Assembly (NCBI GenBank): GCA_005799025.1
Contig: SYHX01000003.1
Span: 1 to 35,421, forward strand
Length of the DNA stretch: 35,421 nt
Reading direction: 5' to 3'
DNA from: Bacteroidota bacterium
GTDB taxonomy: Bacteria; Bacteroidota; Bacteroidia; UBA7662
Below, in pieces: positions 6,414 through 35,421 of the stretch; position 1 is the stretch's first letter, and the number at the start of each line of letters is the position of its first letter. Both the position numbers and the translations under genes were made by a program. The notes below the pieces were generated by a model. It was not told the origin of the DNA. It did not search any database and saw only the letters and a program-made list of their open reading frames with translations.

Positions 6414-6917
6414 ATGAAAAATACCATTCTCCTCTTGGGCTTGATGATGGCAGTCCTTGTTGGTTGCCGCAAAGATGATAATCCTACCCCACCCCTCTCA
6501 CCGGCAGAAACTTACGCCAATCGCCTTGTCGGAACCTGGGATGTCGATAGCTTAACGTATTCAGCTTCGGTATCCGTCCTTGGGCAAACCATTCCCATAA
6601 TCGGAGGCTCTTCCCAGGCAGGTTATATCGCTTTCGAAAAAACACCGGCTAGGACCGTGAATTATGACATCAAATTCAGGCCATCCCTGCCCCCCACCAT
6701 TCCCTTCCCCCTGGATACTGTTCGTTTATTGGGTCGCGGAACCTGGGTGAACACCGTAGATACCATCACCTTAACGGATACCAGCAATCAAGTCTATAAA
6801 TTCAAAGTTTTGTTTAATGGCACAAACACGCAACAACTCAAAACCGTGGTGAGTTACGATGGAGGAACTTTGGGTGTGGTCCCAGTTACCCTTGAAATGA
6901 CTTTAGGACGCCGATAA
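6414..6917 (+). CDS. Small lipoprotein, lipocalin-like
   Basis: The 167-aa protein starts with a lipoprotein signal peptide and a lipobox LVGC (Cys18), followed by RKDDNPTPP, a hydrophilic linker typical of surface or periplasmic Bacteroidetes lipoproteins. The mature part begins YANRLVGTWDVDSLTYSA, the opening pattern of lipocalin-like domains ('L.GtW.vds'), and continues with alternating polar and hydrophobic strands. I chose ATG 6414 over an in-frame ATG at 6324: the later start gives a clean signal peptide, and a -7 box lies between the two. Function is unknown. It lies 257 bp from the divergent LuxR-type regulator. The following gene starts 8 bp after its stop, suggesting co-transcription. 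Confidence 0.72.
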   Translation: MKNTILLLGLMMAVLVGCRKDDNPTPPLSPAETYANRLVGTWDVDSLTYSASVSVLGQTIPIIGGSSQAGYIAFEKTPARTVNYDIKFRPSLPPTIPFPLDTVRLLGRGTWVNTVDTITLTDTSNQVYKFKVLFNGTNTQQLKTVVSYDGGTLGVVPVTLEMTLGRR

Positions 6918-6925
6918 GCTGACCC

Positions 6926-19228: not shown

Positions 19229-19332
19229 CTATAAAATTAAAAAATTAGATCAACATGTGTAAATAACGAAAAATAAGCAAATAGTTGTCTTTTGAATAGA
19301 GAGAAAAATTAAATATAGGGTTTTTGAGAGAT

Positions 19333-19341
19333 GCAAAGGTA
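19333..19341 (-). promoter_or_regulatory. Bacteroidetes-type -7 promoter box for porV
   Basis: The minus strand reads TACCTTTGC, an exact TAnnTTTGC match, in the porU-porV gap, ending 104 bases before the porV ATG. A convincing -33 TTG is not visible at the expected spacing. It implies a leader of about 100 nucleotides. Confidence 0.5.
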
Positions 19342-19355
19342 GTGTAAAGTGCAAT

Positions 19356-22300
19356 TTATCGAGTTACCCACATTCGGGTTTGGGCCGAAGCTCTTTGATC
19401 CTCACATTCGACCTCGATCTGAACCAAATAAAGACCGTTGGTTAAGATATGGGTCCAGTCCCGATTTGTGTTGGAATCCATTCGGAAATAATTACCCTGG
19501 GAGGCACCCGTTTCCTCCATACGGTGAACAATCTTCCCTTGCATATCTATAAAGTTAAGGTTTATCCGCATAGATGATCCAGGTCGGTTGTGATTGAATT
19601 CTAGAATCGGGTTCATGCCAGCGCCAACAGGGTTTGGAAAAACAGCGAGGGATTGAATATGGAACTGATTATTAGGGACTACTTGGAAACGAAGTTGGCC
19701 CGTGGATGAATTATTGCATACATCCCAGGCCTTCAACTCCAAAGTATACGAGCCAGGGGCAAGTTGGCCCAAAGGGTAACGAATTCGACCACTACGGTAT
19801 TGGTCCGGATCTGAAACATAATAGGCATTCAAAGTCTGTGCGCCTGCTTTGTCACCGTTAAGCACAATCTGCATTTCCCTGCCAATTCCCGAGGCGCTGG
19901 AGTTGATGCCATCTTCATCGTATAAGGTTGCCCACAATACATTGTTCAAACCGACAATTCCTTCACTTCGAAACAAAGAATCATTGAGTGACATCACGAT
20001 GCGAGGCCCATCAGGTTGACATAATGAATTCGTCGAACTTCCCCCTACGATAATCATCCGCGAATCACCCGCGGCATCACCCCTTGTATTCCCTGGATAT
20101 AGCGAATCGTCTAGATTACGGAAGGCATAGGTACTAATTCGGCCATTACCAAACACATAATTAATGTCCTTGGGAACTCGGAATTGGGATTTCCATTGCC
20201 CTGCCTTAACAGTTGATTTTCCCCTGAATATTATATTGTTATACTCCGAATATGCAAAGAAATAGGAATCCGGATCGTTGGCCCTTGTGCGAAGAGAGGA
20301 AGCTTTATCCAACACATTCAAATCAAGGAAACCGTTGAATGAACTATCCAATATTCCTCCAGCATTGAACACCTTTCCCTTGATTTCTATCAGACCCAAG
20401 GCTTTCAAGGTATCACTCACTGTGTCCACGGTAATGCTTTGCTGAGGAAAAGCTAATCGAAGCGCAGGATCACCCAGCAAAGTAAAATTTCGGGTATTGA
20501 TTATTCCTAATTCAGGGTTTGCCGCCTCTTTGTATAAGTCTCCTAACCTTAAGGGCTTTCCTTGGTCCTTCCGGAAAAGATGGTCTCTAAAGAGGCGAGA
20601 GGAAATGCTCAAATTAAAGTTGGTAAAGGTTACCCGGGATGTAGTCAGCAAGGCAATAGCACCGCCTCGGGGATTCAGCAAGGCCCGCTCGCCAGCGCTC
20701 CATATTGAAGGATTATCGAAACGAGCAAATTCACACGTTGCCGTTACCATCAGGGGGTAACGCCCGGGATGATCCCAGCCCTCAATTTCCGGAATTGTCA
20801 TGATGCGCTCTTCGGCGAGACCATTCACCCCGCCGTGCCCCATGTAAGCCATCACCAAACAGCCATCCTGCATCGCCCTATTGATTCGATCATTGACGGC
20901 CGGATATCGGGCACCACCTGGCCTGCTTTCCTGCTCGTACGCATCAGCGTAGATTTTCCGAACCAAACCCTGCGGGTACTGAGTCTCTGTATGCCGAACA
21001 AGCTCCGCGCAATCATTCAGATGAATATTGTAATCTTGGTCATCGGCCACAAAAACAAACTCATTTCGCCAAGGGCCTCGATTCGAAGGATCTAAATAAT
21101 CTTGAATTTTACGAACCATTGCCGTGGCTTGGGCCATATCCCTCACCGGAATTCGGCCTATTCCCAAATCCATACGATCTCCACCGCCATCGCCAAAGGC
21201 ACCTTCGGTAGAATCCATCAAACCAAAGAAAGCATCCGAGCAATACGAACCCAATGGATCACGAGAGTTGTAACTCTGAAAGGTGGGTACATGATTCAAA
21301 TTTCCTGGTACAATATCAAATACATCGTAGGATGTCGATCCTAATAACAACAAATACTTTAAAGATGGCCCTGCGGAACTTTGAGGCGTTCTGCGATGAT
21401 ATAGCATCCGTAAATAATCCCGAATTGCCACCAAATCGCGACGACCCGAAGAAAATTCCCGATACAAATCATCGGGATGTACGATATTGATTTTCAGGCC
21501 ATCATATTGATTATGGATTGCCGCAATTTGGGTTGCCTGCGTCATAAAATACTTCGGTGTTACGATCACCATATCCGCTGATGAATCCGCCATGACATTC
21601 TGATTGGGAATAAGAATCATGGACAATGGTGGCCCAAAAGCACTGCCTTTGATTAAGCACAATTGCCTAAGCCTATCTCCTGGGACCAAAATTTGCTGAA
21701 AGTTCGATCCGCTAATTTGAAGATCTTCAAAGGGATACGCCGACACCTCCCATGGCTTGGTCACATCCCATACCTGCAGAGGCTGAGAAACAGACAACCA
21801 ACGATAATGGGTTGGCTGAGGGCCCAAGGTGGAGGCGTTGTAGAAAACCTGGGAAACCGGCCAAAGCTCCGGCTGAATTCTAGGTCTTCCCTGGACCAGA
21901 ATGCGATCCAACCATGCCTGTGCAGAATTGTTCTGACGACTGAAAACCGTGTTCAGATTCAACTGAGACGAACCCGGATCGGTGGACCAAATTTCTTCCT
22001 TCAAATTGTAGAACGGATCCAAATAATAGGTGCCTACCTGTGGCGTAACAACCGTTCGGGGGTCTTGCCCGTTCAATCGAAGGGTAATGGGCGAGGTGGC
22101 GCCCTGACTTCTGATGGCCACACGAACAGCGATCCTGCAAGTATCCCCAGGGGAATAGGAAGGCAAACCCAAGGCGAAATTGCGGTTATTCACCAAGTCA
22201 AGAGGCTCACCCAACCATTCCCTACCGCTTTTGATTGGATTATTCAGTTCTTTCTCGTAGGCCAACAAGCAATCTCCCCGATCTGTTACGGGCCATGGCC

Positions 22301-22820
22301 CAGGCCCTGGGGAGGGCCCTCCTGGCTGAACTGTATCGATGCGAAGAACGAGCGAGCTGACGGGTTGTTTCGCATCTTCCCAATCCGGATTCAGAAAGGC
22401 ATACGATTTCTGCTCATAGGGATTGGGAGATTTGTTCAAAATTGCAGTCCCTGAAGATTGCTGTATACTCTCGGAGCCAGGGATATAGAACAGAAAATAC
22501 TCGTTGTCCTCAAACACCCCATCTAGATCCCCATGAAATTGAAGGGGGTATTGCACCAATCCCCAAGGCCGTACCGCATTATTGGCCTCTGGAAGAGGCC
22601 CCCTATCACCGCCAAAAACGACCAAACGGTCCGTATGCACCCTTGTCGGATGAAGCCCTACACTTTGAAGCCATTGAGGAGTTATTTTGTATATGCCCTC
22701 TCCTGCAAACCCCATTTGAAACCAATCGCCTGACTTCAATGGACTGGCTTTCAGGCTCATAATCATAGTTTGAGCTAGAAGAATCAAGCCACAGCAAAAC
22801 TTTATCAAAAAAATTTTCAC
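19356..22820 (-). CDS. porU: Type IX secretion system sortase PorU (C25 peptidase family)
   Basis: PorU is the gingipain-like (C25) sortase on the cell surface that removes the C-terminal signal of T9SS cargo and attaches it to lipid. The 1154-aa protein has a signal peptide (about 1-26) and an N-terminal region with SGDWFQMGFAGEGIYKIT. The C25 core includes RDYLRMLYHRR, GIGRIPVRD, catalytic-region His662 in YMGHGGVNG and nucleophile Cys696 in VTATCEFARFD. An Ig-like segment follows, and a C-terminal sorting-type domain ends at NGLYLVQIEVECED and RMWVTR. The start codon is GTG at 22820. The length fits PorU (about 1100-1300 aa). It is first in the porU-porV unit and divergent from porP-gldJ across 228 bp. 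Confidence 0.94.
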   Translation of the reverse strand: MKIFLIKFCCGLILLAQTMIMSLKASPLKSGDWFQMGFAGEGIYKITPQWLQSVGLHPTRVHTDRLVVFGGDRGPLPEANNAVRPWGLVQYPLQFHGDLDGVFEDNEYFLFYIPGSESIQQSSGTAILNKSPNPYEQKSYAFLNPDWEDAKQPVSSLVLRIDTVQPGGPSPGPGPWPVTDRGDCLLAYEKELNNPIKSGREWLGEPLDLVNNRNFALGLPSYSPGDTCRIAVRVAIRSQGATSPITLRLNGQDPRTVVTPQVGTYYLDPFYNLKEEIWSTDPGSSQLNLNTVFSRQNNSAQAWLDRILVQGRPRIQPELWPVSQVFYNASTLGPQPTHYRWLSVSQPLQVWDVTKPWEVSAYPFEDLQISGSNFQQILVPGDRLRQLCLIKGSAFGPPLSMILIPNQNVMADSSADMVIVTPKYFMTQATQIAAIHNQYDGLKINIVHPDDLYREFSSGRRDLVAIRDYLRMLYHRRTPQSSAGPSLKYLLLLGSTSYDVFDIVPGNLNHVPTFQSYNSRDPLGSYCSDAFFGLMDSTEGAFGDGGGDRMDLGIGRIPVRDMAQATAMVRKIQDYLDPSNRGPWRNEFVFVADDQDYNIHLNDCAELVRHTETQYPQGLVRKIYADAYEQESRPGGARYPAVNDRINRAMQDGCLVMAYMGHGGVNGLAEERIMTIPEIEGWDHPGRYPLMVTATCEFARFDNPSIWSAGERALLNPRGGAIALLTTSRVTFTNFNLSISSRLFRDHLFRKDQGKPLRLGDLYKEAANPELGIINTRNFTLLGDPALRLAFPQQSITVDTVSDTLKALGLIEIKGKVFNAGGILDSSFNGFLDLNVLDKASSLRTRANDPDSYFFAYSEYNNIIFRGKSTVKAGQWKSQFRVPKDINYVFGNGRISTYAFRNLDDSLYPGNTRGDAAGDSRMIIVGGSSTNSLCQPDGPRIVMSLNDSLFRSEGIVGLNNVLWATLYDEDGINSSASGIGREMQIVLNGDKAGAQTLNAYYVSDPDQYRSGRIRYPLGQLAPGSYTLELKAWDVCNNSSTGQLRFQVVPNNQFHIQSLAVFPNPVGAGMNPILEFNHNRPGSSMRINLNFIDMQGKIVHRMEETGASQGNYFRMDSNTNRDWTHILTNGLYLVQIEVECEDQRASAQTRMWVTR

Positions 22821-23008
22821 GATCGTAAAGTTCTCATTAAGTTTATCAATTAAGCCTTAAAATGGAATTAAGTCGCCCAAAATAAAAAAATGAATTAAGT
22901 TTGAAGAAGGGGGTGAAATCATGAAGACCGTGAATACTTAAGTCCCTTAACGCCCAAAACCCGTATAATCTTTCAATCATTTTCATGTTTCCCTTAAATT
23001 CCTTGGAT

Positions 23009-23039
23009 TTGGCCGCTTTTGGTGTGAAATTTACGCTTC
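23009..23039 (+). promoter_or_regulatory. Possible promoter of the porP-gldJ operon
   Basis: TTG at 23009-23011 is followed after 20 bases by TACGCTTC (23032-23039), a partial TAnnTTTG match with correct spacing. The ATG of porP is 9 bases further on. The -7 box has two mismatches, so this is tentative. Confidence 0.35.
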
Positions 23040-23048
23040 ATCCTTCCC

Positions 23049-24086
23049 ATGAGAATTTTTCCTAAAGTTAGAAAAGCGTTAATGAGCAACCCAAAAAGCA
23101 AGGCATTAGCCTCATTTTTCCTGATTTTTGGCGTGATGCAATGCCTAGCTCCAAGGATGTGGGCACAGGATGTGGTATTTTCCCAATTTTACGCAAACCC
23201 CCTTTATCTAAACCCTGCCTTGGCGGGTAATGCTTCCGATCCCCGTTTGACGTTCAATTTTCGCAACCAGTGGCCTGCCCTCAATGCCTCGTTCGTAACC
23301 TACAGTGCTGGCTTTGATCAACATTTTGACGCTTTGAGTGGCGGAGTCGGCCTGCATGTCCTTACCGATCAAATTGGCTCTGAGGCATTCCGCCATACGC
23401 AAGTTGCCTTACAATATGCCTATAACTTGAACATCAACAGGAATTTGGCGCTTCGAGCGGGGTTTCAATATGCCTATGCTAACCGTTCCTTGAACTTCAA
23501 TAAACTTACTTTTCCGGAACAAATTGATCGTGTCAACGGAATCGGTGGAAGGCCAACCGGTTCTGAAATTCCCTTTGGAACCAAAACGGTCACTATAAGC
23601 GATTTCTCGGCGGGGCTTATGCTTTTTTCCGAAAAGTTCTATTTCGGTGCCGCAGCACACCACCTAACTGAGCCAAGCCAAGCCTTTTTCGGAGATGCCG
23701 ATGCGCCTTGGCCCATGAGAATTTCTATCCACACAGGGGCGAATATTCCCCTAAGCCAATCCTATTCCAACGCTGAACCACTAACCCTATCGCCCAATGT
23801 GATCTACATTCAACAAGGGACATCAAGCCAAATCAATGTGGGAACTTATCTGAGCAAAGGCGCTCTTTCGGCAGGCCTATGGTATCGCGTAAATGATGCA
23901 ATCATTGCAACCGCCGGATTTCAGAGAGGACAAATGCGTTTGGGCTACGGCTATGATATTACAACCTCCAAACTAAGCGAAGCAAGACCCGGGGGTTCTC
24001 ACGAGGTCTCTCTAAGCTTTGTTTTCGAAAAATATGAACCCATCGAGAAAAGGCGTTATTCCAAAGTAAATTGTCCGCGATTCTAA
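23049..24086 (+). CDS. Type IX secretion system membrane protein PorP/SprF family
   Basis: PorP/SprF proteins are outer-membrane barrels tied to the T9SS; many help particular cargo such as gliding adhesins. The 345-aa protein has a signal peptide ending near RMWAQ. It then has the family signature DVVFSQFYANPLYLNPALAG, NFRNQWPALNASFVTYSAGF, LSGGVGLHVLTDQIG and ALRAGFQYAYANRSLNF. It ends with GSHEVSLSFVFEKYEP, typical of the last barrel strand. I keep ATG 23049; ATG 23082 would also leave a signal peptide. The gene is 39 bp upstream of gldJ and co-directional. PorP usually precedes porKLMN, but here it precedes gldJ. Confidence 0.92.
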   Translation: MRIFPKVRKALMSNPKSKALASFFLIFGVMQCLAPRMWAQDVVFSQFYANPLYLNPALAGNASDPRLTFNFRNQWPALNASFVTYSAGFDQHFDALSGGVGLHVLTDQIGSEAFRHTQVALQYAYNLNINRNLALRAGFQYAYANRSLNFNKLTFPEQIDRVNGIGGRPTGSEIPFGTKTVTISDFSAGLMLFSEKFYFGAAAHHLTEPSQAFFGDADAPWPMRISIHTGANIPLSQSYSNAEPLTLSPNVIYIQQGTSSQINVGTYLSKGALSAGLWYRVNDAIIATAGFQRGQMRLGYGYDITTSKLSEARPGGSHEVSLSFVFEKYEPIEKRRYSKVNCPRF

Positions 24087-24125
24087 ACTATCTTTTAATT
24101 GTTTTACCCAAGCACAAACTCAGCC

Positions 24126-25520
24126 ATGAACAAAAAAATATTATCCGTGTGGAAATGTGAGTCCATAATCGGCCTCCTGGCACTTGTTTTGGCCCTTTCG
24201 GGATGTGGTAATGGAAATCGCTCCACGACTACAACTTGGTTTTACGGCAATCCCAAAGGTCTTACTTTCAAGAGTATAGACCATAATGGAGCCCCTCCTC
24301 CGGGAATGATTTTTGTGCCAGGTGGATCCTTTGTGATGGGCGCCACCCAAGAGTCTGTTGCTCTTGATCCAGACAATGTTCCCAAATATGCATCTGTATC
24401 CTCCTTCTACATGGATGAGATTGAAGTCCCTAATGTCAGCTACTGTGAATACCTCAACTGGATGGCCAAAGTTTTTGCCCAATCTAACCCAGCGGCCTAT
24501 CGAAGTGCCTTACCTGATACGACCGTTTGGAGAAATGGCTTATCATTCAATGAGCCCCATGTAAATGACTATTTGCGTCACCCTGCTTTCAAATATTACC
24601 CTGTAGTTGGCGTTAGCTGGGTTCAAGCCAATCAATATTGCGAATGGCGAACAGACCGTGTTAATGAACAAAGGCTGATTGATGCGGGCTATATCAAATA
24701 TTCCGCCCAATCCGGCGAGCAGCATTTCACCACCAAAGGGTATTTGGCAGGTTTCTACCGCCCTGAACTTACTAAATCCAAAACCAAAACGAGTATTAAT
24801 GGCGAATTGGTATATCCCGTGACGGAAGATGGGTTTTTCACCGCTTCATACCGTTTGCCTTCTGAAGCCGAGTGGGAATATGCTGCCCAAGGCCTGGTTG
24901 GTAGAACAGAGAGCGGGCTGATTGCCGAAAGGAGAGTTTACCCATGGAACGAAAGGGGTATACGTTCAGGCCCTGGGCGCAGGCAGGGCAACTATTATGG
25001 AAACTTTAAGCACAGTGTCTCCACCCCCTCTGAGGTCGGGTCCTACGATGTCACTCGTGGTGGTCCAACGGCTCCAGGTAAATACTATCGTGCCAATGAT
25101 TTTGGACTTTATAACATGGCCGGAAATGTTAACGAATGGGTTGCCGACCTTTACCGGCCCACTTCCAATATCGAATCCGATGCGATTTCTCCTTTCTTAG
25201 GGGGTGGCTATACCCGTCCTCAATACGATGAAGAAGGGAATCTTGCCAAAGACAGTGCAGGAAGGGTGATCATGATCGCAGATGACCGAAGGTACAGCGA
25301 TGATTTGTTGTCCTCCTACCTTGATAGCGTTACTATTATCGCTAATCCCAACGGTCAGGTGAACAACCGCAACCGAGTTTATAAAGGGGGTAGCTACCGC
25401 GACATGCCTTATTGGGTAACACCGGGAGCTCGCCGTTTCTTCAATGAGTCCAAAGGGAAAGATGATTTAGGTTTCCGTTGTGCGATGATCGGCCTAGGCC
25501 GACCCAGAGGACAGAGGTAA
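24126..25520 (+). CDS. gldJ: Gliding motility/T9SS lipoprotein GldJ
   Basis: GldJ is an outer-membrane lipoprotein with a formylglycine-generating-enzyme (SUMF1)-like fold, needed for gliding and T9SS function. The 464-aa protein has a lipobox LSGC (Cys27), then TTTTWFYGNPKG and PPPGMIFVPGGSFVMGATQE. The strongest GldJ-specific matches are SSFYMDEIEVPNVSYCEYLN, TTVWRNGLSFNE, NDYLRHPAFKYYPVVGVSWV and WRTDRVNEQRL. YRLPSEAEWEYAAQG, NDFGLYNMAGNVNEWVADLY, VYKGGSYRDMPYW and DLGFRCAM follow. It is shorter than F. johnsoniae GldJ (about 560 aa), mainly in the loop before the final VYKGGS region. GldK/PorK was considered: the WRN...NDYLRHP block fits GldJ. ATG 24126 is preferred over a frame opening at 24099 because it gives a clean lipoprotein signal. 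Confidence 0.94.
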   Translation: MNKKILSVWKCESIIGLLALVLALSGCGNGNRSTTTTWFYGNPKGLTFKSIDHNGAPPPGMIFVPGGSFVMGATQESVALDPDNVPKYASVSSFYMDEIEVPNVSYCEYLNWMAKVFAQSNPAAYRSALPDTTVWRNGLSFNEPHVNDYLRHPAFKYYPVVGVSWVQANQYCEWRTDRVNEQRLIDAGYIKYSAQSGEQHFTTKGYLAGFYRPELTKSKTKTSINGELVYPVTEDGFFTASYRLPSEAEWEYAAQGLVGRTESGLIAERRVYPWNERGIRSGPGRRQGNYYGNFKHSVSTPSEVGSYDVTRGGPTAPGKYYRANDFGLYNMAGNVNEWVADLYRPTSNIESDAISPFLGGGYTRPQYDEEGNLAKDSAGRVIMIADDRRYSDDLLSSYLDSVTIIANPNGQVNNRNRVYKGGSYRDMPYWVTPGARRFFNESKGKDDLGFRCAMIGLGRPRGQR

Positions 25521-25545
25521 GAATCATCCGTTTCAAACCAAAAAC

Positions 25546-25592
25546 CGATTGATATAGTGATTAGCGATTGGTGTAGTGATCAGCGATTGATC
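25546..25592. repeat. Imperfect 19-bp tandem repeat, about 2.5 copies
   Basis: CGATTGATATAGTGATTAG (25546-25564) is followed by CGATTGGTGTAGTGATCAG (25565-25583) and a partial CGATTGATC (25584-25592). Units 1 and 2 differ at three of 19 positions. The array lies just after the gldJ stop and covers the TGA stop codon of the convergent FG-GAP gene. Confidence 0.85.
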
Positions 25593-27943
25593 CAAAACCT
25601 CGCCGAAGCACTTTTGCCAGCGACATTCCTCCCTACGAGTTGATAAATTCCCGAGGCGATCACCTCGGGAATTTTTATTTCATATCCTTGAGAACTCTGG
25701 GACGCTCGCTCCTGTTCCAAATTCCAAACGGCTACCACCCTGCCTTCACCATTATAGCAAGCCAATTCTTTGAGGTTATTTGCAAGACCAGGCAAGGTGA
25801 TCATGAGTGTGGAACCAGGGAACACTGGATTGGGATACAATAACATACTTTGAGCCGTGGAATTTGGTGCAGAGGACTCCGTAATGGAAACCATCGATGA
25901 TGTGTTACGCCAATGGGTGAGGCCACCTTTGAAAAAACCCAGGAGGAGGTCAGGAAAAGAGTCCGCGTTGAGGTCGGCGAGTGCGGGACTCACCCAATTT
26001 CCATGAGGCAAAGAATCAGAAATCCCTCCAGCAAAATGGTAAACAAACACATCATTGCGTGACTGGGCAACCGAAAGCCCTGACCAAACGGAAGGGTAAC
26101 AATAAACTTTACCCGACTCAGAGCCCACAATTAGATCAGCAAGACCATCACGGTTCAAGTCTCCTATGCGTGGTGCGGCCCATCCCGAAATTGATTCTGC
26201 AACATTGATTCTACCGAGGCTGTCAGTGAATTTAATCCATTGCGGATTCGTTAGGGTGCCTTGGTTTTGGAAGCAGGCAATTTGTCCATTGCGCATCCCG
26301 ACCAGAAGCTCCGGTTTTCTGTCCCCATCCAGGTCTCCAAGCTCCGGGGATAATTCAATACCGCTCCGTAAGCCTTGATAATCGTAACTAAGTCGTTGAA
26401 ATTGAATGGGTCCTGTAGTTGATGCGGTAATATTTCGATAATGCAGCATGGTGGAGTCGCTGTGCCCAATCAACAAATCCGGGCGACCATCACCGTCAAG
26501 ATCGCCCGCCGCTAAACGTGGGTTCCGAATCGGTACAGAATCCAAACGTAAGAACAAAGAATCAACCAGCTCGAATATGGGTGTCGAAAAAGTTCCTTTG
26601 TTACGATACAGGGCTAGACAGGGTTTGAGGGCAGAATTTTCGTAGGCCACCAAAAGGTCAGGCAAGCTATCTCCATTCCAATCAGCAACCACGGGCGATG
26701 CTTTGAGGTAATGATGCACCATGTCCTCTAAGACAAAGGATTTGGTGGTCAGGGCAAAGGAATCACGCAAAACCCCAGGCATGCCACGAAGATTTTGATA
26801 ATGCCAAACATGGCGACTAAGGTTCGACCCATAGAACTCGTTGGGACAGATCACCAAATCCTGCACCGCAGATGACCCCCAACCTACCGGTCCCGTTCCG
26901 TTGAAGGGGAGCGAATAGGCCGCAGGGAATTTAGTCATAGCCAAGGGGCTGTCAAGGAATGTGGGCGCTCCGGTTTGCCAAGCCATGCGAGCCAGCGAGC
27001 GGTTTCCCCCGTTGTGGAGGTAGGTCAGAAAATGCCCCTCTACATCCCCAAGGAGCAAATCGGGTAGGCTGTCGCGGTTGGGGTTGATGAGGTTTATCGA
27101 GGAGCCTACATGAGATGGCCTGAGCACCGATGGCAACGGCAACGGAGTCTGGCAATTGGTGTCCAGACCAAGGATTACCTGGGAGCTAAGCTGATTTTCG
27201 ACGAGGCGTCCCCAACAGCGAGAAACTTGGACATAATCCAGAGAGTCGGAATGCCCGTAGCGCTCCCTAGAGAAGTTTCGGAAATAATTTATTTTACCGA
27301 TTTCAAAATTGTCGAAAGCAAGAATATCCAAATCTCCATCCCCATCTAGGTCAGCGATGCCCGGCCTGTCTATACTCAGCACATAGATGGCCGTTCGAAA
27401 TCCGAAATCCCAAAGGGCCGTTATGGAAGGAGATCGCAGCGAGAAACGTGGTACTTGACCCACTCCGTTGTTGCGATACAAAGCAATGCCCCCATTGGTG
27501 GAACAAAAAATATCCTCATCTCCATCCCCGTCAAAGTCCGCCAACTCCACCCACGAATTGAAGCGGGGAAACAGTGGTATATAGCGCGGTGCAGGTACCC
27601 AAGCCACTGGTAAAATGCCAACGCGTTCATAGATCATTATACTTTGGTCAACTCTATCAAATACAATGCGCTCTTGAAGCCCATCTCCGTTCAAATCCAT
27701 GGAATGCCATTGAGGACATGCCATACCTCCTGCCCATGGATGAGCCAGGGTGCGCCCACCCACTTCTACCACTGGTACGAGTAAGACCGGTCGGAATTGA
27801 ATCGGTGGCATTTGACCTTTCACCCATCCTATGTGCAGGAACAGGCCGCAACAAACCAATGGCAAGATCCTCCATAACTTGTGGAAGACCTTAAATGGGA
27901 AAAAGCAAGAGGGCCGTGAGGAGAAATGCATAGACTTGGTCAT
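25580..27943 (-). CDS. FG-GAP/VCBS-repeat secreted protein with T9SS C-terminal sorting domain
   Basis: The 787-aa protein has a signal peptide (hydrophobic core LPLVCCGLFLHIGWV). About nine FG-GAP/VCBS calcium-binding loops follow: DLNGDGLQER, DFDGDGDEDIF, DLDGDGDLDIL, NPNRDSLPDLL, DWNGDSLPDLL, DLDGDGRPDLL, DLDGDRKPELL, DLNRDGLADLI and DLNADSFPDLL. These form a propeller like integrin-alpha heads. The last 80 residues are a type A T9SS sorting domain: SMLLYPNPVFPGSTLMITLP ... ASGIYQLVGRN ... FWINR. It is therefore a probable exported surface or secreted protein; the ligand is unknown. It is convergent with gldJ, 59 bp between stops. Position next to porP-gldJ suggests it is a substrate of this system (inference). 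Confidence 0.85.
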   Translation of the reverse strand: MTKSMHFSSRPSCFFPFKVFHKLWRILPLVCCGLFLHIGWVKGQMPPIQFRPVLLVPVVEVGGRTLAHPWAGGMACPQWHSMDLNGDGLQERIVFDRVDQSIMIYERVGILPVAWVPAPRYIPLFPRFNSWVELADFDGDGDEDIFCSTNGGIALYRNNGVGQVPRFSLRSPSITALWDFGFRTAIYVLSIDRPGIADLDGDGDLDILAFDNFEIGKINYFRNFSRERYGHSDSLDYVQVSRCWGRLVENQLSSQVILGLDTNCQTPLPLPSVLRPSHVGSSINLINPNRDSLPDLLLGDVEGHFLTYLHNGGNRSLARMAWQTGAPTFLDSPLAMTKFPAAYSLPFNGTGPVGWGSSAVQDLVICPNEFYGSNLSRHVWHYQNLRGMPGVLRDSFALTTKSFVLEDMVHHYLKASPVVADWNGDSLPDLLVAYENSALKPCLALYRNKGTFSTPIFELVDSLFLRLDSVPIRNPRLAAGDLDGDGRPDLLIGHSDSTMLHYRNITASTTGPIQFQRLSYDYQGLRSGIELSPELGDLDGDRKPELLVGMRNGQIACFQNQGTLTNPQWIKFTDSLGRINVAESISGWAAPRIGDLNRDGLADLIVGSESGKVYCYPSVWSGLSVAQSRNDVFVYHFAGGISDSLPHGNWVSPALADLNADSFPDLLLGFFKGGLTHWRNTSSMVSITESSAPNSTAQSMLLYPNPVFPGSTLMITLPGLANNLKELACYNGEGRVVAVWNLEQERASQSSQGYEIKIPEVIASGIYQLVGRNVAGKSASARFWINR
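25645..25680 (+). terminator. Rho-independent terminator for porP-gldJ, inside the convergent FG-GAP gene
   Basis: A perfect 12-bp stem, AAATTCCCGAGG (25645-25656) with CCTCGGGAATTT (25663-25674), encloses a 6-base loop and is followed by a T-rich tail ending TTTTTATTT (25672-25680). The U-tract lies on the plus-strand side, so it acts on the gldJ transcript about 125-160 bases after its stop. On the minus strand the same bases encode KIPEVIASGI of the FG-GAP protein. Confidence 0.82.
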
Positions 27944-28081
27944 ATGGTCTTGGGGAAAAATGAATGGGCCTCCTCAAGACCGCGGTTTTGTAGCGAAATT
28001 CGAGCGAAACGTTTGGACATCGCACGAACAATAGTGGCGGGTAAGGCGTTGATTTTGTAAAATTATGCATTCCTGAAGCGG

Positions 28082-29455
28082 ATGAACCAATTACCTACCC
28101 TTGAAGAAGCCGGTTTGCAGAACGGGCGCTTGGAGCAATTGCACGAAGCCTTTATGGCCGCTGGCGGGAGGCTATGTACCGATAGCCGGCTATTAAAAGC
28201 CGGTGACTGTTACGCGGCCTTGAAGGGGGAGCGGTTTGATGGACATGATTTTGTGGAAAAGGCCTTGGCCGCAGGCGCCTCCATAGTCATTACCGAACGG
28301 CCTGAGGAAATTGAAGACGAGCGTGAGAGGGTCTTCGCAACACGAAACACTCTCGCCGCATTACAACGGCTGGCCCTGTACCATCGGCGGCAATTGCAAG
28401 GCCTTAAGGTCCTTGCTGTAGCCGGATCCAATGGCAAAACCACCTGCAAAGAATTAATCTATGCAGTGTTATCCAAACATTATCCATGCCACTTGACTCC
28501 GGGTAATTTCAACAACCATCTAGGCGTTGCGATTAGCCTGCTCGGTACTCCGCCCGGTACCGAATGGGCGATTATCGAAATCGGCTCCAACCATCCAGGT
28601 GAATTAGATTTGTTATGTGAAATGATTGAACCGAATATGGGCGTTGTCACCAGCATTGGCAAAGAGCATCTCGAAGGCTTCGGTACCATGGAAAACATCA
28701 TTCGTGAGGAAACCGCGCTTTATCGTTATATCATTGATAACCATGGTGTTGCAATTGCTCATCAAGACTCGCCCCTCATTATGCAGACCTTTGTTGGACA
28801 GAAGATTCCCCTTACTTACGGAGTAAATCCTGAATCCGACTGCCTCGGTAAATTAACAGGGACCTTCCCTTACCTCTCCCTGCAATGGGAGTTCAATGCC
28901 AAGGCACTGTGGGACGCCCCCGTTCTGCATACCAAGATTTACGGAGACTACAACTTCCCCCATATTCTGGCAGCGGCGGCCATTGGTCGCTATTTGTCGG
29001 TTCCCTACGACCGTATATGCGAAGCTCTTACCAGCTGGCAGCCTCGTAACAACCGCTCTGAAATTCGGGAATTCCGCGGACACTGGCTGATTATGGATGC
29101 CTACAACGCCAACCCGGACAGCATGCGAGCTGCCCTGGAGCATTTCCATCGCATAGAGCATCCTCACAAGGTTATCCTTCTTGGGGAAATGCTCGAAATG
29201 GGAGAGTATTCGGAGTACGAGCATCGCTTCCTTTTGGAAACTGCCCTGCATTATGATTTTCAGGCAGTTTGTTTGGTGGGGCAAGCCTTTTGGGGATTGC
29301 GGAACGAGTTCCCCTTGTACCGCTTCTTTGAAGATTCGGCTTCGCTTCACCAATTTCTACAAGCCGCTCGATGGTCACCCTCGGCCATCTTGTTCAAGGG
29401 CTCCCGAGGCAATGCCATGGAGCAGTACGCCGACAGCCTCCCCAAGTCCTGTTAG
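28082..29455 (+). CDS. murF: UDP-N-acetylmuramoyl-tripeptide--D-alanyl-D-alanine ligase
   Basis: MurF adds D-Ala-D-Ala to UDP-MurNAc-tripeptide in the cytoplasm, the last nucleotide-linked step of peptidoglycan precursor synthesis. The 457-aa protein has the N-terminal Mur domain (LCTDSRLLKAGDCYAALKGE with FDGHDFVEKALAAGA), the P-loop AVAGSNGKTT (112-121), GNFNNHLGVAISLL, IIEIGSNHPGELDLL, SIGKEHLEGFGTMENI and the C-terminal MDAYNANPDSMRAALEHF with LLGEMLEMGEYSEYEH. All are typical of MurF rather than MurC/D/E. It stands alone, convergent with comF, with 11 bp between stops. It is divergent from the FG-GAP gene across 138 bp. Confidence 0.96.
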   Translation: MNQLPTLEEAGLQNGRLEQLHEAFMAAGGRLCTDSRLLKAGDCYAALKGERFDGHDFVEKALAAGASIVITERPEEIEDERERVFATRNTLAALQRLALYHRRQLQGLKVLAVAGSNGKTTCKELIYAVLSKHYPCHLTPGNFNNHLGVAISLLGTPPGTEWAIIEIGSNHPGELDLLCEMIEPNMGVVTSIGKEHLEGFGTMENIIREETALYRYIIDNHGVAIAHQDSPLIMQTFVGQKIPLTYGVNPESDCLGKLTGTFPYLSLQWEFNAKALWDAPVLHTKIYGDYNFPHILAAAAIGRYLSVPYDRICEALTSWQPRNNRSEIREFRGHWLIMDAYNANPDSMRAALEHFHRIEHPHKVILLGEMLEMGEYSEYEHRFLLETALHYDFQAVCLVGQAFWGLRNEFPLYRFFEDSASLHQFLQAARWSPSAILFKGSRGNAMEQYADSLPKSC

Positions 29456-29466
29456 TTCTTACAAGG

Positions 29467-30207
29467 TTATTTGCCCAATTTGCGGGCAAGGACCATCACC
29501 GATAACAGGGCACCACGCTCAACCAGCAACTTGCCGCATTGTTCCAAGGTCGCCCCGGTGGTCATGACATCGTCAACCAACAGGCAACGAAGCCCGGCGA
29601 GATCTTGACTATAAACTAAGGATGCGGGACTAGTACCATGTTCAAAATCTGTGGCCGCTTTGACAAATCGCTCCCTTCGTCCTAGCCTGGCAAGATTCAA
29701 TCCACCTTCTTTCCGCCTCAAAGCATACTCCAGGAGCGGAATTCCCCAACGACTAGCCATACCATTAGCCAATTCAGCGGCTTGATTATAACCTCGGCTC
29801 CACATGCGTTTGGGGGTCAGTGGGACCGGAATCACCCGGTGTGGAGGTGGGTGCCAACCATCCCTATGATCGGCCATCATTGCCCCTATCGGTGAACCGA
29901 GGTGGCGTTTGCCTCCGAATTTGAGGGCTTTGTATAATGCTTCCGCAACTGAACCCGAAGGAGCCATCCAAAGGGCAGACGCATCCTGTACCGGAATTCG
30001 CCAAGACAATTCCTCCCGCATATTCCCACAATCCAATTCAGAAGCGCAACGAAGATCCAAAGCGCAATAAAGGCAGGTCAGGGCAGGAATTACCCCCATT
30101 CCGTGGCCGCATGCAGGGCATATCCCGCTCCAAACCATCGACATCCACCCAAACCATTTGGATTCTGGGACTGATATAGGGCTTTTTGGCCTGTAGGTGT
30201 GATTCAT
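29467..30207 (-). CDS. comF: ComF family phosphoribosyltransferase-like protein
   Basis: ComF/GntX proteins take part in DNA uptake in some bacteria; their exact reaction is unknown. The 246-aa protein has an N-terminal zinc-finger-like pair CPAC (residues 30-33) and CLYC (45-48). It then has the family segments ALYKALKFGGKRHLG, VIPVPLTPKRMWSRGYNQAA and RRKEGGLNLARLGRRERFV, and the PRPP-binding loop LLVDDVMTTGATLEQC. The frame extends 14 codons upstream; I prefer ATG 30207, and a later ATG just before the CPAC pair is possible. It is divergent from the parvulin operon, with about 93 bp between starts. Confidence 0.9.
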   Translation of the reverse strand: MNHTYRPKSPISVPESKWFGWMSMVWSGICPACGHGMGVIPALTCLYCALDLRCASELDCGNMREELSWRIPVQDASALWMAPSGSVAEALYKALKFGGKRHLGSPIGAMMADHRDGWHPPPHRVIPVPLTPKRMWSRGYNQAAELANGMASRWGIPLLEYALRRKEGGLNLARLGRRERFVKAATDFEHGTSPASLVYSQDLAGLRCLLVDDVMTTGATLEQCGKLLVERGALLSVMVLARKLGK

Positions 30208-30253
30208 CCTCTGCATTTGGACGCAAAACTGCCGTTCAAACAAGCCCAAGCCT

Positions 30254-30261
30254 TATTTTTG
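30254..30261 (+). promoter_or_regulatory. Bacteroidetes-type -7 box for the two-gene parvulin operon
   Basis: TATTTTTG matches TAnnTTTG exactly and ends 39 bases before the ATG at 30301. No clear -33 TTG is present at 19-21 bases. Confidence 0.45.
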
Positions 30262-30300
30262 GCATCCTTTTGGAAACAAACCTCACAAAATCAATAATCC

Positions 30301-32439
30301 ATGAAAATCCACGCATTCAAGCCCTTTACGGTATTCGGAATTACCATAGGAGCTGTTCTGTTCGTCTATGGTCTCAAGGCCTCCGCTCAAGAGAATGGTT
30401 CCAACCCCGCCCCTGTCCTTTTTGAGGTAATCGGCGGTAATATGCCTGCTGAACAAGTCCGGACCGATGAATTCAGCACGCTTTTTAACAAGAACAATTT
30501 CAAGAAAACCGTGCCAAACCGCGCCGAGTGGGAAGAGTATCTCGACCTCTACGTCAAGTTCAAGCTCAAAGTCCGCGAAGCTGTCCGTTTGGGTATGGAT
30601 ACCACAACGCGTTTCAAGGAAGAATTACAGGGATACCGCAATCAGCTGGCGCAACCTTATTTGCGTGACAAGGAAACCGGAAAATTTCTTTTGGACCAGG
30701 CCTTCGAACGCTCGCAATTGGAAGTAAGAGCCGCCCATATCATGGTGCGCGTTGATGAGAATGGATCCCCTGCAGATAGTCTAACAGCCTACCAGAAGGC
30801 AGTGGCTTTGCGTCAAGACATTGTGGACGGCAAAGATTTTAGCGAATGGGCCAAGGTAAAATCAGACGATCCGTCGGCAGGGGATAATGGCGGAGACCTT
30901 GGTTATTTCTCGGTATTCCGAATGATCTACCCCTTCGAAGAAATGGCTTTCAATACCCCAGTAGGCGCGATTTCTCCTGTGTTCAGAACACAATACGGAT
31001 ACCATTTTCTGAAGGTGATTGACCGCCGCAATGCAAGGGGCGAAATTCGTGTAGCCCATCTCCTGATCAAAAGTCCTTCCACTGACAACGATACCCTCAA
31101 AGCCCAAGCCAAAGCCAAAGTTGATGCCTTGATGATCAAACTCAAGGCAGGTGAATCCTTCGAGGCTTTGGTCAAGCAACATAGCGAAGACCCCAGCAGC
31201 TCCGACAAAGGCGGTGTTTTGCCATTTTTTGGAACAGGCCGTATGATTCCTGATTTTGAAGAAGCCGCTTTTGGCCTAGCTCAAGACGGCGACCTCTCCT
31301 CACCTGTGCAAACTCCCTACGGGTGGCATATCCTCAAGCGCATTGAACATCGCCCGGTCCCGGGATTTGAACAAGCCAAAGGTGATTTAGAGCTCAAAAT
31401 TGCTCGCGATACCCGAGCGAATCAAAACACCGAAAATTTGATTGTTAAACTCAAAACCGAATACCAGTTCACCCAAAACAAAGAAGCTATTGAAGCCGTC
31501 TTCAACTCTGTTGTGGACAGTTTGTACCGCAAACTGGAATGGAGAGCCCCAAGTGCATGGGCTATGAACGTTTCCCCAGGAAATTGGGATAACCAACGCA
31601 TTTCCAAAGAAAAAGCCAGCTCCAAAAGCCCCAAAAGCAAAGGGACTTCCGGCAAAGTCCCAGCACCTGCTGCTCCCCTCACCATGATGGGCGATACGGT
31701 GGTACATCGCTACGGGGATATGGTCCTCAAACAATCCGATTTGGCTATGTGGCTTGAAGAAGAACAGAAAAATGCCGCAGGAGCGGATCCGGTCATCCAC
31801 CTGCGCAATGTGTACAAAGCGCGCACCGACAAAGCAATCCTGGCCTACGAAGACAGCCGATTGGAAAGCAAATACCCTGCCTTTGCGGCCCTGATGAAAG
31901 AATACCGCGAAGGAATTTTACTCTTTGATTTGATGGACAAGAAGGTTTGGTCTATGGCCATGAGCGATACCGACGGCCTACAAAAATTCTTTGACGGGCG
32001 TGCCGCGATGTACCAATGGAAGGACCGCACCGATGCAGAAATCTACACTTGCCTCAGCAAAGAAGTGGCCAAAGCAGTACGCAAGGCCGTGAAGAAAGGC
32101 AAGATGAGTCCCGAAGAAATTTCCAAAACCTGGAATGCCAAAGACCCTTTGAACGTCAAAGCCATCAGCGGTAAATACGAAATCGGTAACCAGGCCGTTT
32201 TGGATTCATTACCCCGCAAAAAAGCCTTGTTGGGACCCTTCGAACGCAACAAACAATGGGTAGTGGTACGCGTCAAAGATCTTCTTCCTGCAGGACCCAA
32301 AAAGATGAACGAAGCCCGTGGGCAACTTACCTCCGATTACCAAACCGAATTGGAAAGCCGCTGGATCGCCGAACTCAAGCAATCCTACCCTGTTCAAATC
32401 AACAACGATGTCTTCAAGGCTTTGCTGCCGAAAGAATGA
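30301..32439 (+). CDS. Periplasmic peptidyl-prolyl isomerase with two parvulin domains
   Basis: The 712-aa protein has a signal peptide ending near LKASAQ. A helical region follows, then two adjacent parvulin (rotamase) domains at about 141-242 and 249-350. Each shows the family marks: AAHIMVR...DDPSAGDNGGDLGYFS...YPFEEMAF...TQYGYHFLKV, and VAHLLIK...SEDPSSSDKGGVLPFF...IPDFEEAAF...TPYGWHILK. Residues 351-712 form a long helical C-terminal part with a Lys/Ser-rich linker (near 437-460). The architecture suggests a SurA/PpiD-like chaperone for outer-membrane or secreted proteins, in this case in the periplasm. The next gene starts at an ATG overlapping its stop, so both are translated together. 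Confidence 0.88.
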   Translation: MKIHAFKPFTVFGITIGAVLFVYGLKASAQENGSNPAPVLFEVIGGNMPAEQVRTDEFSTLFNKNNFKKTVPNRAEWEEYLDLYVKFKLKVREAVRLGMDTTTRFKEELQGYRNQLAQPYLRDKETGKFLLDQAFERSQLEVRAAHIMVRVDENGSPADSLTAYQKAVALRQDIVDGKDFSEWAKVKSDDPSAGDNGGDLGYFSVFRMIYPFEEMAFNTPVGAISPVFRTQYGYHFLKVIDRRNARGEIRVAHLLIKSPSTDNDTLKAQAKAKVDALMIKLKAGESFEALVKQHSEDPSSSDKGGVLPFFGTGRMIPDFEEAAFGLAQDGDLSSPVQTPYGWHILKRIEHRPVPGFEQAKGDLELKIARDTRANQNTENLIVKLKTEYQFTQNKEAIEAVFNSVVDSLYRKLEWRAPSAWAMNVSPGNWDNQRISKEKASSKSPKSKGTSGKVPAPAAPLTMMGDTVVHRYGDMVLKQSDLAMWLEEEQKNAAGADPVIHLRNVYKARTDKAILAYEDSRLESKYPAFAALMKEYREGILLFDLMDKKVWSMAMSDTDGLQKFFDGRAAMYQWKDRTDAEIYTCLSKEVAKAVRKAVKKGKMSPEEISKTWNAKDPLNVKAISGKYEIGNQAVLDSLPRKKALLGPFERNKQWVVVRVKDLLPAGPKKMNEARGQLTSDYQTELESRWIAELKQSYPVQINNDVFKALLPKE

Positions 32440-33944
32440 TGCTTCGTTCCGTTCCGAATCAAGGGTATCCCTTTCGGGCTATGCTCCTCTTGGGGTTTTG
32501 CTTCATCCTGAATAGCATCGTCTTTCATGGTGAGGCTTTGGCTTCGGAGAGCCTCTCGGGCCAAGGAGCTTTGTCACCGAAGTCGAGACTATGGAACGGC
32601 AATAATTTTGACCCGCTCGATACTCTTACCCCATCCAAACCGAACAATACTCAGGTTTCGGAGGGAATTCTAGCACAGATTGCCGATAAAATCATTTTGC
32701 AATCGGAGCTGGAGACTGAATTTCGAAAGTCCACCGACCAAGAAAGGCAAGAAGGCCGTTACAATCCGGATTCTGGCGAAGCCTTGCGTTGCATGTTGTT
32801 TGAACAAATGATTTTAGGCAAAATGTTGCAACGGCAAGCCGAAATTGATTCATTAGTTATTGCACCAGAAGAAGTGGATAACCAATTGGATCGACGCATT
32901 CGCCACTTCGCAGGTATGATGGGCGGTCAGGAACGTCTTGAGGAATTCTACGGCAAAACCATGCCCGAAATCCGCGAAGAATTCCGGCCCCAAATCAAAG
33001 ACATGCTGCTGTCCCAAAAGATGCGGGACAAAATCACCGCAGATGTTCAAATATCCCCTGCCGAAGTGAGGGCCTACTTTACCAAAATACCCTTCGACAG
33101 CCTGCCCTTGGTACCCGCCGAAGTCGAGATTGGGCAATTGGTGGTCAAGCCCAAGGCAGGGCTCGAAAACCGAACCCTCGCCATGGACAAAATCCAAGGC
33201 CTGCGCAATCGTATCCTTCAGGGTGAATCCTTCGCGACCCTGGCCATCCTGTATTCCCAAGATCCCGGCTCTGCAAGGGAGGGTGGACAGCTTGGCTTTT
33301 TTGGAAGAGGGGATATGGTCCCGGAATTTGAAGCTGTTGCTTTCCGCCTCAAACCCGGAGAAGTTTCCTCCGTGGTCAAAACTTCCTTTGGATACCATAT
33401 TATCCAGCTCATCGCCCGACGTGGCGAACGCATTCAATGCCGTCATATCCTCATCAAGCCGCCCATCGGCAGCCGTGAACAAAGCGAGGCCCGCAGCCTC
33501 TTGGACTCGGTACGCGGCTTGCTTGTTGCAGGTAAAATTTCCTTCACCGATGCCGTCCGCAAGTATTCGGATGATCCGGAAACCAAGGCTTTCGGTGGGA
33601 TGCTTCCACCACCCCAAGGCGGCAGCATGGCCTGGCCTATAGATCAGCTGACCCCGGAACTTTACTACGCGATCGAGAAGATCAACGAAGGCGAATATTC
33701 GGAAGTCCAGCCCTACGCTACTCCTGGTGGGGAACAGGGATTTCGCCTTGTTTTGTTACGCAAACGGAGCACTCCTCACCGAACCTCTCTGGAAATCGAT
33801 TACGAAAAAATTACGAACACCGCACTGCAAATCAAACGAATCGACAAGCTTAATCGCTGGATTGAAAACAAAGCCAAAGAAACATACGTTCGGCTCACCC
33901 CTCTTGCTCCGGACTGCCTCTCCATCCGACGCTGGAATTTCTGA
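32436..33944 (+). CDS. surA: SurA-like periplasmic chaperone/peptidyl-prolyl isomerase
   Basis: SurA escorts unfolded outer-membrane proteins to the BAM complex. The 502-aa protein has a signal sequence with core MLLLGFCFILNSIVF and a SurA N-terminal chaperone domain (about 73-215: ILAQIADKIILQSELETEF, LFEQMILGKMLQRQA, MGGQERLEEFYGKTMPEIRE). Two rotamase domains follow, at about 228-328 (SQDPGSAREGGQLGFFGRGD, EFEAVAFRLKPGEVSSVVKT) and about 333-430 (RHILIKP, YSDDPETKAFGGML). Order and length match SurA. Start codons ATG 32436 and ATG 32439 are adjacent; the first overlaps the upstream TGA (ATGA), indicating translational coupling. It converges on the ALDH gene after 37 bp. Confidence 0.9.
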   Translation: MMLRSVPNQGYPFRAMLLLGFCFILNSIVFHGEALASESLSGQGALSPKSRLWNGNNFDPLDTLTPSKPNNTQVSEGILAQIADKIILQSELETEFRKSTDQERQEGRYNPDSGEALRCMLFEQMILGKMLQRQAEIDSLVIAPEEVDNQLDRRIRHFAGMMGGQERLEEFYGKTMPEIREEFRPQIKDMLLSQKMRDKITADVQISPAEVRAYFTKIPFDSLPLVPAEVEIGQLVVKPKAGLENRTLAMDKIQGLRNRILQGESFATLAILYSQDPGSAREGGQLGFFGRGDMVPEFEAVAFRLKPGEVSSVVKTSFGYHIIQLIARRGERIQCRHILIKPPIGSREQSEARSLLDSVRGLLVAGKISFTDAVRKYSDDPETKAFGGMLPPPQGGSMAWPIDQLTPELYYAIEKINEGEYSEVQPYATPGGEQGFRLVLLRKRSTPHRTSLEIDYEKITNTALQIKRIDKLNRWIENKAKETYVRLTPLAPDCLSIRRWNF

Positions 33945-33981
33945 TTGTCGAATCGATTGAAAATTCGAATCGCCAAAAGAG

Positions 33982-35421
33982 TTAAATTTCGAAGCGTATC
34001 CCCTGGGCCAAAGGCAATCGGTCGGTATAGTTGATGGTGTTGGTCTGCCGACGCATATAGGCTTTCCAACTATCTGAACCCGATTCACGACCTCCTCCGG
34101 TTTCTTTTTCGCCGCCAAAAGCTCCGCCAATTTCTGCGCCCGATGTGCCAATGTTCACGTTGGCTATCCCGCAATCGGAGCCGGAAGCCGACAAAAACTG
34201 TTCAGCTTCCAACAAATTGCGGGTGAACAGAGCCGATGACAATCCCTGGGGAACGGAGTTTTGAATTTGAATTGCCTCGGTCAATTCCTTGTAGGAATGA
34301 ACATAGAGAATAGGAGCAAAGGTTTCGTGCATCACGATGGGTGCATTCGTCGAAATTTCTATAACACAAGGCTTAACATAACAACCGGATTGGAAACCGT
34401 TTCCGCTCAACACTCCCCCTTCCACCAAAACCCGACCCCCCTGTTCCTGGGCTTTCTCGATGGCTTGGGTATAGGCTTGAACCGCCTGCTGGTCAATGAG
34501 CGGCCCCACATGGTTGTTGGAGTCCAAAGGATCTCCAATGCGCAATTGTGCGTAGGCCAAAACTAAAATCCGGGTCAAGTCGGCATATACTGATTCATGA
34601 ACGATGAGTCGGCGGGTGGTGGTGCAACGTTGTCCTGCTGTTCCCACCGCGCCAAAGACTGCACCCACTATTACCAATTTTAGATCCGCTTCGGATGAAA
34701 TAATGATGGCGTTGTTCCCACCCAATTCCAGCAAGGATCGACCGAGTCGGCCGGCAACCGCCGCGGCAACCGCCTTGCCCATCCGGGTTGAACCCGTGGC
34801 CGATACCAAAGGAACCCGGGGATCGTGGCTGAGCCATTCCCCCACGGCTACACCGCCAATCACCAGGCCGCTTAGACCTTCCGGTGCGCCAAAAGATTCC
34901 ATAACACGAGCGGTGATTTTCTGGCAAGCCAAGGCCGTTAACGGTGTTTTTTCGGAAGGCTTCCAAACGCATGCATTACCGCAGACCCAGGCAAGCATGG
35001 TATTCCAACTCCATACCGCCACCGGGAAATTAAAAGCAGAAATGACGCCCACCACACCCAAAGGATGCCATTGTTCGTACATCCGATGACCAGGGCGTTC
35101 GCTGTGCATGGTGAGCCCATACAATTGACGAGAGAGGCCGACTGCAAAATCGCAGATATCAATGATTTCCTGAACCTCTCCTAAACCCTCCTGGAGGCTT
35201 TTGCCCATTTCGTATGACACCAACTGGCCCAGAGGTTCTTTGAGCCGGCGAAATTCTTCGCCCAAAAGGCGGACGAATTCCCCACGACGTGGCGCAGGCA
35301 CATTTCTCCATTCCTGGAAGGCCGTTACCGCTGCCGCCATGACCTGCTCATAATCCGCCTGTGCTGCTTGGGTTACTGAACCCATCAAAGCACCGTCCAC
35401 CGGCGAATACGATTCCAACAA
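33982..35421 (-). CDS. ALDH7-type aldehyde dehydrogenase (probable alpha-aminoadipate-semialdehyde dehydrogenase), N-terminus missing
   Basis: The visible 479 codons run to the last base of the window, where the terminal codon is TTG inside the frame, so about 25 or more N-terminal residues lie outside. The sequence SYSPVDGALMGSVTQA, the GVISAFNFPVAVWSWN core, LLELGGNNAIII with the catalytic-region Glu, and GTAGQRCTTTRRL with nucleophile Cys fit the ALDH superfamily. TSGAEIGGAFGGEKETGGGR followed by ESGSDSWKAYMRRQTNTINY is the signature of the ALDH7 (antiquitin) family. Those enzymes oxidise alpha-aminoadipate semialdehyde to alpha-aminoadipate with NAD+ in lysine breakdown, so that is the likely reaction. 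No other lysine-catabolism gene is visible. Orientation is convergent with surA. Confidence 0.93.
   Translation of the reverse strand: MLESYSPVDGALMGSVTQAAQADYEQVMAAAVTAFQEWRNVPAPRRGEFVRLLGEEFRRLKEPLGQLVSYEMGKSLQEGLGEVQEIIDICDFAVGLSRQLYGLTMHSERPGHRMYEQWHPLGVVGVISAFNFPVAVWSWNTMLAWVCGNACVWKPSEKTPLTALACQKITARVMESFGAPEGLSGLVIGGVAVGEWLSHDPRVPLVSATGSTRMGKAVAAAVAGRLGRSLLELGGNNAIIISSEADLKLVIVGAVFGAVGTAGQRCTTTRRLIVHESVYADLTRILVLAYAQLRIGDPLDSNNHVGPLIDQQAVQAYTQAIEKAQEQGGRVLVEGGVLSGNGFQSGCYVKPCVIEISTNAPIVMHETFAPILYVHSYKELTEAIQIQNSVPQGLSSALFTRNLLEAEQFLSASGSDCGIANVNIGTSGAEIGGAFGGEKETGGGRESGSDSWKAYMRRQTNTINYTDRLPLAQGIRFEI

Follow-up and report, generated by a model that had tools for sequence, protein, structure and literature searches.

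Immediately downstream of a gldJ-like gene in the window, i.e., the whole analysed stretch of 35,421 nucleotides, a strong hairpin is located within the final ~100 bases of the convergent FG-GAP gene; it most likely serves gldJ as its intrinsic (Rho-independent) terminator. We give this reading, in which termination itself is predicted from the DNA and its relatives, a probability of about 0.85. RNA polymerase leaving gldJ would form the stem, pause on the U-tract and release the transcript near 25675-25681, which presumably prevents antisense transcription across the FG-GAP gene toward murF. A single short sequence therefore probably folds as RNA on one strand and codes for a protein end on the other, and the relatives seem to have solved this at two places. 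The features of the locus are the following:

24126..25520, plus strand: gldJ-like lipoprotein gene, FGE-sulfatase fold (PF03781, 1e-38; TIGR03524 GldJ, 4.7e-98)
25521..25680, plus strand: presumed gldJ 3' UTR, its extent deduced from the stop codon and the hairpin positions
25580..27943, minus strand: gene for an FG-GAP repeat protein of 787 aa (PF13517, PF01839) with a weak C-terminal match to a T9SS type A sorting domain
25643..25675, minus strand: codons 757-767 of this gene (K I P E V I A S G I Y in the ORF translation), sharing the terminator bases
25645..25674, plus strand: candidate intrinsic-terminator stem-loop (scan, folding, conservation in relatives)
25672..25680, plus strand: T-tract TTTTTATTT, of which the first three T double as stem-pairing bases
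28082..29455, plus strand: murF (TIGR01143, 329.7 bits, cut-off 288.6)

GldJ is the top NCBIfam match of the upstream gene (TIGR03524), but with 329.3 against 458.2 it stays under the cut-off. The gene stands at the end of a T9SS locus, as PorV, PorU, a PorP/SprF-family gene and the gldJ-like gene are grouped at 17969-25520. In the window murF is separated from gldJ by the FG-GAP gene.

The hairpin and the coding sequence it shares

The stem is formed by positions 25645-25656 and 25663-25674 of the plus strand and the loop by 25657-25662, and the sequence of 25645-25674 is AAATTCCCGAGG-CGATCA-CCTCGGGAATTT, followed by TTATTT. Coordinates and folding agree with the sequence-only reading, which had described a stem of 12 perfect pairs, a loop of six bases and a T-tract on the plus side. 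Six of the 12 pairs are G-C, and the tract 3' of the stem has five T among its six bases with one interrupting A. The energy of the plus-strand hairpin is -18.2 to -18.7 kcal/mol, a value equalled in none of 200 shuffles. When both strands of the window were scanned, the hairpin was the best terminator-like site, with the runner-up at -11.0 under the same scoring, and dinucleotide shuffles of 25511-25720 reached -12 in 24 and -18.2 in two of 20,000 cases. A bare match in a simple consensus scan is uninformative, since 21 terminator-like sites were found this way in 20000-35421 against 19.9 expected; within that list the hairpin has the longest and most G+C-rich stem with a T-tract immediately after it. 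Across the 686,903 bases of the genome that were sampled (39%), it ranks 11th among 23 sites at or below -14. The site thus has sequence features expected of an intrinsic terminator, namely a stable G+C-rich stem, a U-tract after the stem, a gene on the same strand upstream, and conservation in relatives. The hairpin is not a dispersed (REP-like) repeat, because a genome search allowing up to three mismatches found it in a single copy only. A search for RNA families over 501 bases at the site gave none at gathering score, with mir-1005, His_leader and NsiR1 rejected as sub-threshold matches far under their cut-offs. The sole RNA match of the whole window is the Rfam DUF805 cis-regulatory RNA at 219-286 on the minus strand (85 bits, gathering score 51.1). 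Between gldJ and the hairpin, and spanning the FG-GAP stop codon, there is a 19-bp tandem repeat (25546-25591, 2.4 copies, 85% matches).

The stem begins 124 nt behind the gldJ stop codon and sits wholly in the opposite frame, in codons 757-767 of the minus-strand ORF, so that the same bases do code for the KIPEVIASGI of the opposite gene as previously read. Since the hairpin is inside the FG-GAP ORF, the gldJ message would at its end run antisense to the final 65-101 nt of the ORF (25580 to 25645-25680), which for this presumed 3' end matches the 65-100 antisense bases proposed before. That these codons specify conserved sorting-domain residues is true in part: the G-x-Y part is kept across the genus, but K-I-P-E is invariant only in a clade of five genomes. 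The likeness of the FG-GAP protein to a T9SS type A cargo is weak, as its last 93 residues score under the curated cut-offs for the sorting domain (TIGR04183, 19.2 vs. 23 bits; PF18962, 20.8 vs. 27).

To analyse the codon choice, the final 60 codons were recoded at random with synonymous codons, drawn according to the codon counts of the crude ORFs of this genome. The real hairpin energy was matched by 57 of 20,000 recodings of the window, and by 35, 68, 14, 63, 24, and 16 per 20,000 in six other genomes. Any terminator at or below -12 arose in 1,490 of the 20,000 window recodings, so the protein itself favours some hairpin at this place. Synonymous differences were counted over codons 547-787 (mostly the last 240 codons) wherever five genomes have the same amino acid. 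The seven stem codons differ in eight of 70 comparisons, compared to 482 of 1,320 for the other 132 codons; 1,003 of 100,000 random codon sets were as low as the stem, and so were eight of 134 consecutive runs. With four rows the same test gave 1,181 of 100,000 and eight of 135, respectively. Using three full-length genomes, the contrast is reduced (4/21 in the stem vs. 549/1,749 elsewhere), and the least-changing ten-codon window starts at codon 552, away from the stem. Taken together, these counts are moderate evidence for a constraint on codon choice beyond the protein. The idea that one sequence is selected both for RNA structure and for protein is therefore partly supported by the rarity of equally strong recodings and of equally low random codon sets (~1%), but weakened by the eight runs that are as low and by the minimum lying elsewhere; likewise, the expected low synonymous change is found in the stem codons relative to the rest, but the codons around 552 are lower still.

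Conservation in the genus and in other Bacteroidota

A gldJ gene is present in eight of the nine genus genomes searched; a full gldJ was not found in G004 or G008, the latter being the genus genome without a match. In each of the eight genomes with gldJ, a terminator at or below -16.0 kcal/mol stands no more than 200 nt past the gldJ stop, and in all seven that show both genes the FG-GAP ORF overlies it, whereas in the eighth, G014 (L009), the contig stops 92 nt past the gldJ stop. The stem of the window is common to five genomes (the window, G010, G011, G012, and G013). G009, G014, and G015 have another stem, AAACGGGCCGCC-TTG-GGTGGCCCGTTT followed by about T8, at 26-74 nt past the gldJ stop; in G009 and G015 it is located in codons HKKNGPPKAARL near the FG-GAP C-terminus, off the position of the window stem. 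The two clades hence carry non-homologous stems at different codons, and the alternative one is closer to the FG-GAP stop codon. The hairpin points the gldJ way, as proposed earlier, and is retained in relatives, with 12 of 12 plus-strand pairs in the five-genome clade and the other strong terminator in the remaining three genomes. In L010, which belongs to another genus of the same family, a terminator lies 19-49 nt past gldJ and appears to be intergenic, since the FG-GAP match starts only 432 nt past the gldJ stop. The gap between gldJ and the FG-GAP gene in the 3'-flank alignment is 63 nt in the window and 7-29 nt in near relatives. Regarding the loci compared, L032, L033, L034, and L035 apparently duplicate L003 (G011), L005 (G010), L006 (G012), and L008 (G015), respectively, as judged from their matching flanks, and therefore the FG class with its 12 loci amounts to eight genomes, of which L010 falls outside the genus; further pairs of like rows are L014/L018, L015/L019, and L016/L020. 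The alignment of the FG-GAP C-termini comprises seven genomes, with L009 too short and L010 left out.

The five genomes (four distinct rows) also bear on the strand whose pairing is kept. Ten of the 12 pairs are invariant and two vary on one side, and the counts gave only these two, with a third variable pair suspected at 25663 dismissed. Counting G-U, all 48 plus-strand cells are paired, in contrast to 43 of 48 (89.6%) on the minus strand, because the G-U changes on the plus strand read C-A on the minus strand: both variable pairs are A-U or G-U on the plus strand and unpaired on the minus strand where changed. L033 and L034 have a plus stem of -18.4 and a minus stem, with two mismatches, of -12.3, while in the window (-20.7 kcal/mol, perfect) and in L004 (-18.5) the minus-strand stem is strong, as is the plus-strand stem in both. 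In the stem of the alternative clade (L035) the lone non-Watson-Crick pair is again G-U on the plus strand and a mismatch on the minus strand. Compensatory changes on both sides of a pair were not seen across the five genomes (four rows). The pairing pattern favours the gldJ direction, resting on few events in sequence, namely two variable pairs in five close genomes.

For the wider Bacteroidota, 99 loci with gldJ relatives were examined, 19 from one search and 80 of the 587 listed from another. Among the matches listed, 68 of the 99 loci have murF next to gldJ on the same strand at a distance of up to 400 nt, with no FG-GAP relative. Of these 68, again among the matches listed, 59 carry a terminator at or below -9 in the 200 nt past gldJ, and 50 carry one at or below -12, compared to 26 and 4 of 3,400 shuffled flanks, respectively. 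As judged from the 59 of 68 close gldJ-murF loci against the 26 of 3,400 shuffles, a terminator after gldJ is old and common in Bacteroidota. In the genus the FG-GAP gene is located between gldJ and murF on the opposite strand, and murF is found beyond it in the window, L033, L034, and L035. The idea that the FG-GAP gene split a gldJ-murF operon and thereby forced a new terminator was rejected, since 59 of the 68 intact neighbours already carry one (among the matches listed). A literature search for gldJ together with murF found no paper, from which we make no claim of absence from print. The suggested long-kept terminator behind gldJ in the T9SS/gliding loci of Bacteroidota bears on a possible co-expression of gldJ and murF.

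In the genus, the convergent frame extends over what most likely is this old terminator, and the terminator has shifted its place within the FG-GAP frame between the two clades. How this came about can be sketched as overprinting: the C-terminal FG-GAP frame might have grown over the pre-existing gldJ terminator and recruited it as code for the secretion-signal domain, with the T-tract read backwards as lysine codons and the stem as turn and strand residues, and later, in the clade of the window, the terminator might have moved tens of bases deeper, with a joint RNA and protein constraint each time. We offer this history tentatively, as a possible but rather doubtful extension of the terminator reading.

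Alternative explanations

The stem could be a chance palindrome, i.e., the K-I-P-E..SGI codons could be self-complementary by accident and the stem kept by protein conservation alone. In line with this, the protein is conserved over the stretch in five genomes, 7% of the recodings produce a hairpin at or below -12, and several codon runs (8/134) are equally unchanging. However, just 57 of 20,000 recodings reach the real energy, the site lies directly after gldJ and its T-tract is on the side that fits gldJ, a different strong terminator occupies this short interval in the other clade, and terminators are widespread after gldJ, which together leave an accident quite improbable. The perfect minus stem of the window, with -20.7 kcal/mol, might further be taken for a two-way terminator serving both convergent genes, the more so as no second minus-strand terminator turned up in the scan from 25580 down to 21818. 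Against this stands the minus side without a T-tract (AATTTATCAACTCG), the minus strand continuing past the stem as ATCAACTCG; moreover, the cargo message would end about 60-65 nt short of the stop codon, and the minus stem is impaired in L033 and L034, with L004 as the exception, so that we regard a two-way function as very unlikely. With gldJ as the only gene served, the one-sided U-tract would make sense, because a T-tract on the opposite side would truncate the cargo message ahead of the codons for the C-terminus.

A role of the stem mainly in the FG-GAP message, in stability, pausing or RNase cleavage close to the 3' end, would require folding on the minus strand, which is given in the window and L004. 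Yet the variants break minus-strand pairs and keep plus-strand pairs, and translation, from general knowledge, would unfold the stem; such a role is hardly credible. A further possibility is that the terminator is leaky and regulatory, with gldJ read-through producing an RNA antisense to the cargo gene and perhaps reaching murF, similar to an excludon or a non-contiguous operon. This would suit the arrangement of gldJ and murF, same-strand neighbours within 400 nt in 68 of the 99 loci among the matches listed and here separated by the FG-GAP gene on the other strand, and a flavobacterium is reported to produce antisense RNA where termination is imperfect (PMC9723704). The strength of the terminator speaks against read-through and a non-contiguous operon, however, and 59 of the 68 gldJ-murF pairs among the matches listed are already separated by a terminator, so that regulated leakage is improbable as well. 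Hence, the intrinsic terminator of gldJ remains the preferred explanation of the hairpin.

Known convergent overlaps and other pairs of this genome

Convergent overlaps of a 3' UTR with a coding sequence are already known, and the gldJ/FG-GAP site is a further case. The arfA gene of E. coli presumably has a terminator within its own coding sequence, and pervasive two-way terminators were reportedly found by Ju et al. in 2019. In the tail-to-tail pair mscL/arfA of E. coli, the 3' UTR of one gene is complementary to the 3' end of the other gene's coding sequence (PMC10070815), a convergent 3' UTR/CDS overlap like that of gldJ and FG-GAP; in contrast, antisense regulation was examined there, whereas the gldJ/FG-GAP pair is known from sequence alone. 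Of the mapped intrinsic-terminator ends in Zymomonas mobilis, 34% are of the convergent class (PMC7566282). The convergent terminators of E. coli and Z. mobilis resemble the gldJ site in having a strong hairpin and a U-tract at a convergent pair, but they are typically intergenic and often two-way, whereas the gldJ one appears one-way and is inside a coding sequence. In Rickettsia prowazekii the transcripts of convergent genes run into each other's coding regions (PMC3027695). Its crowded, reduced genome and convergent overlap are shared with the genome of the gldJ site, where the overlap is predicted; however, many convergent pairs of R. prowazekii are described there without a defined stop, whereas a strong stop is predicted behind gldJ. 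For genome annotation this means that terminator finders restricted to intergenic regions would overlook embedded sites in compact genomes.

The sample of this genome (686,903 of 1,773,240 bases), analysed with a crude ORF caller, contains 90 convergent pairs, 31 of them overlapping and 61 with gaps below 40 nt; the pair in L112 was missed by the caller and added by hand. A terminator match of -10 or lower was found in four of the 90 pairs, three embedded and one intergenic, and two weaker embedded sites of the sample have -10.1. Since the other 86 pairs lack such a match, most convergent pairs here do without a terminator, and embedded terminators as a rule for them are unsupported. The second strong terminator is located in L112 at 7718-7741 on the minus strand (-19.9), in the last codons of a plus-strand ORF with an OMP decarboxylase domain (6429-7745), and follows the minus-strand ORF 7792-8127, an Omp28 match that runs off the contig. 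This pyrF-like/Omp28-like pair resembles the gldJ site in having a strong terminator in the final codons of a convergent gene, but its analysis covers this one genome. The T-tract in L112 read backwards gives lysine codons. Moreover, clustered strong hairpins with T-tracts are present at a contig start (L146, 51-195), with -14.2 and -21.9 on the plus strand and -23.7 on the minus strand over the same stem, which looks like a two-way terminator.
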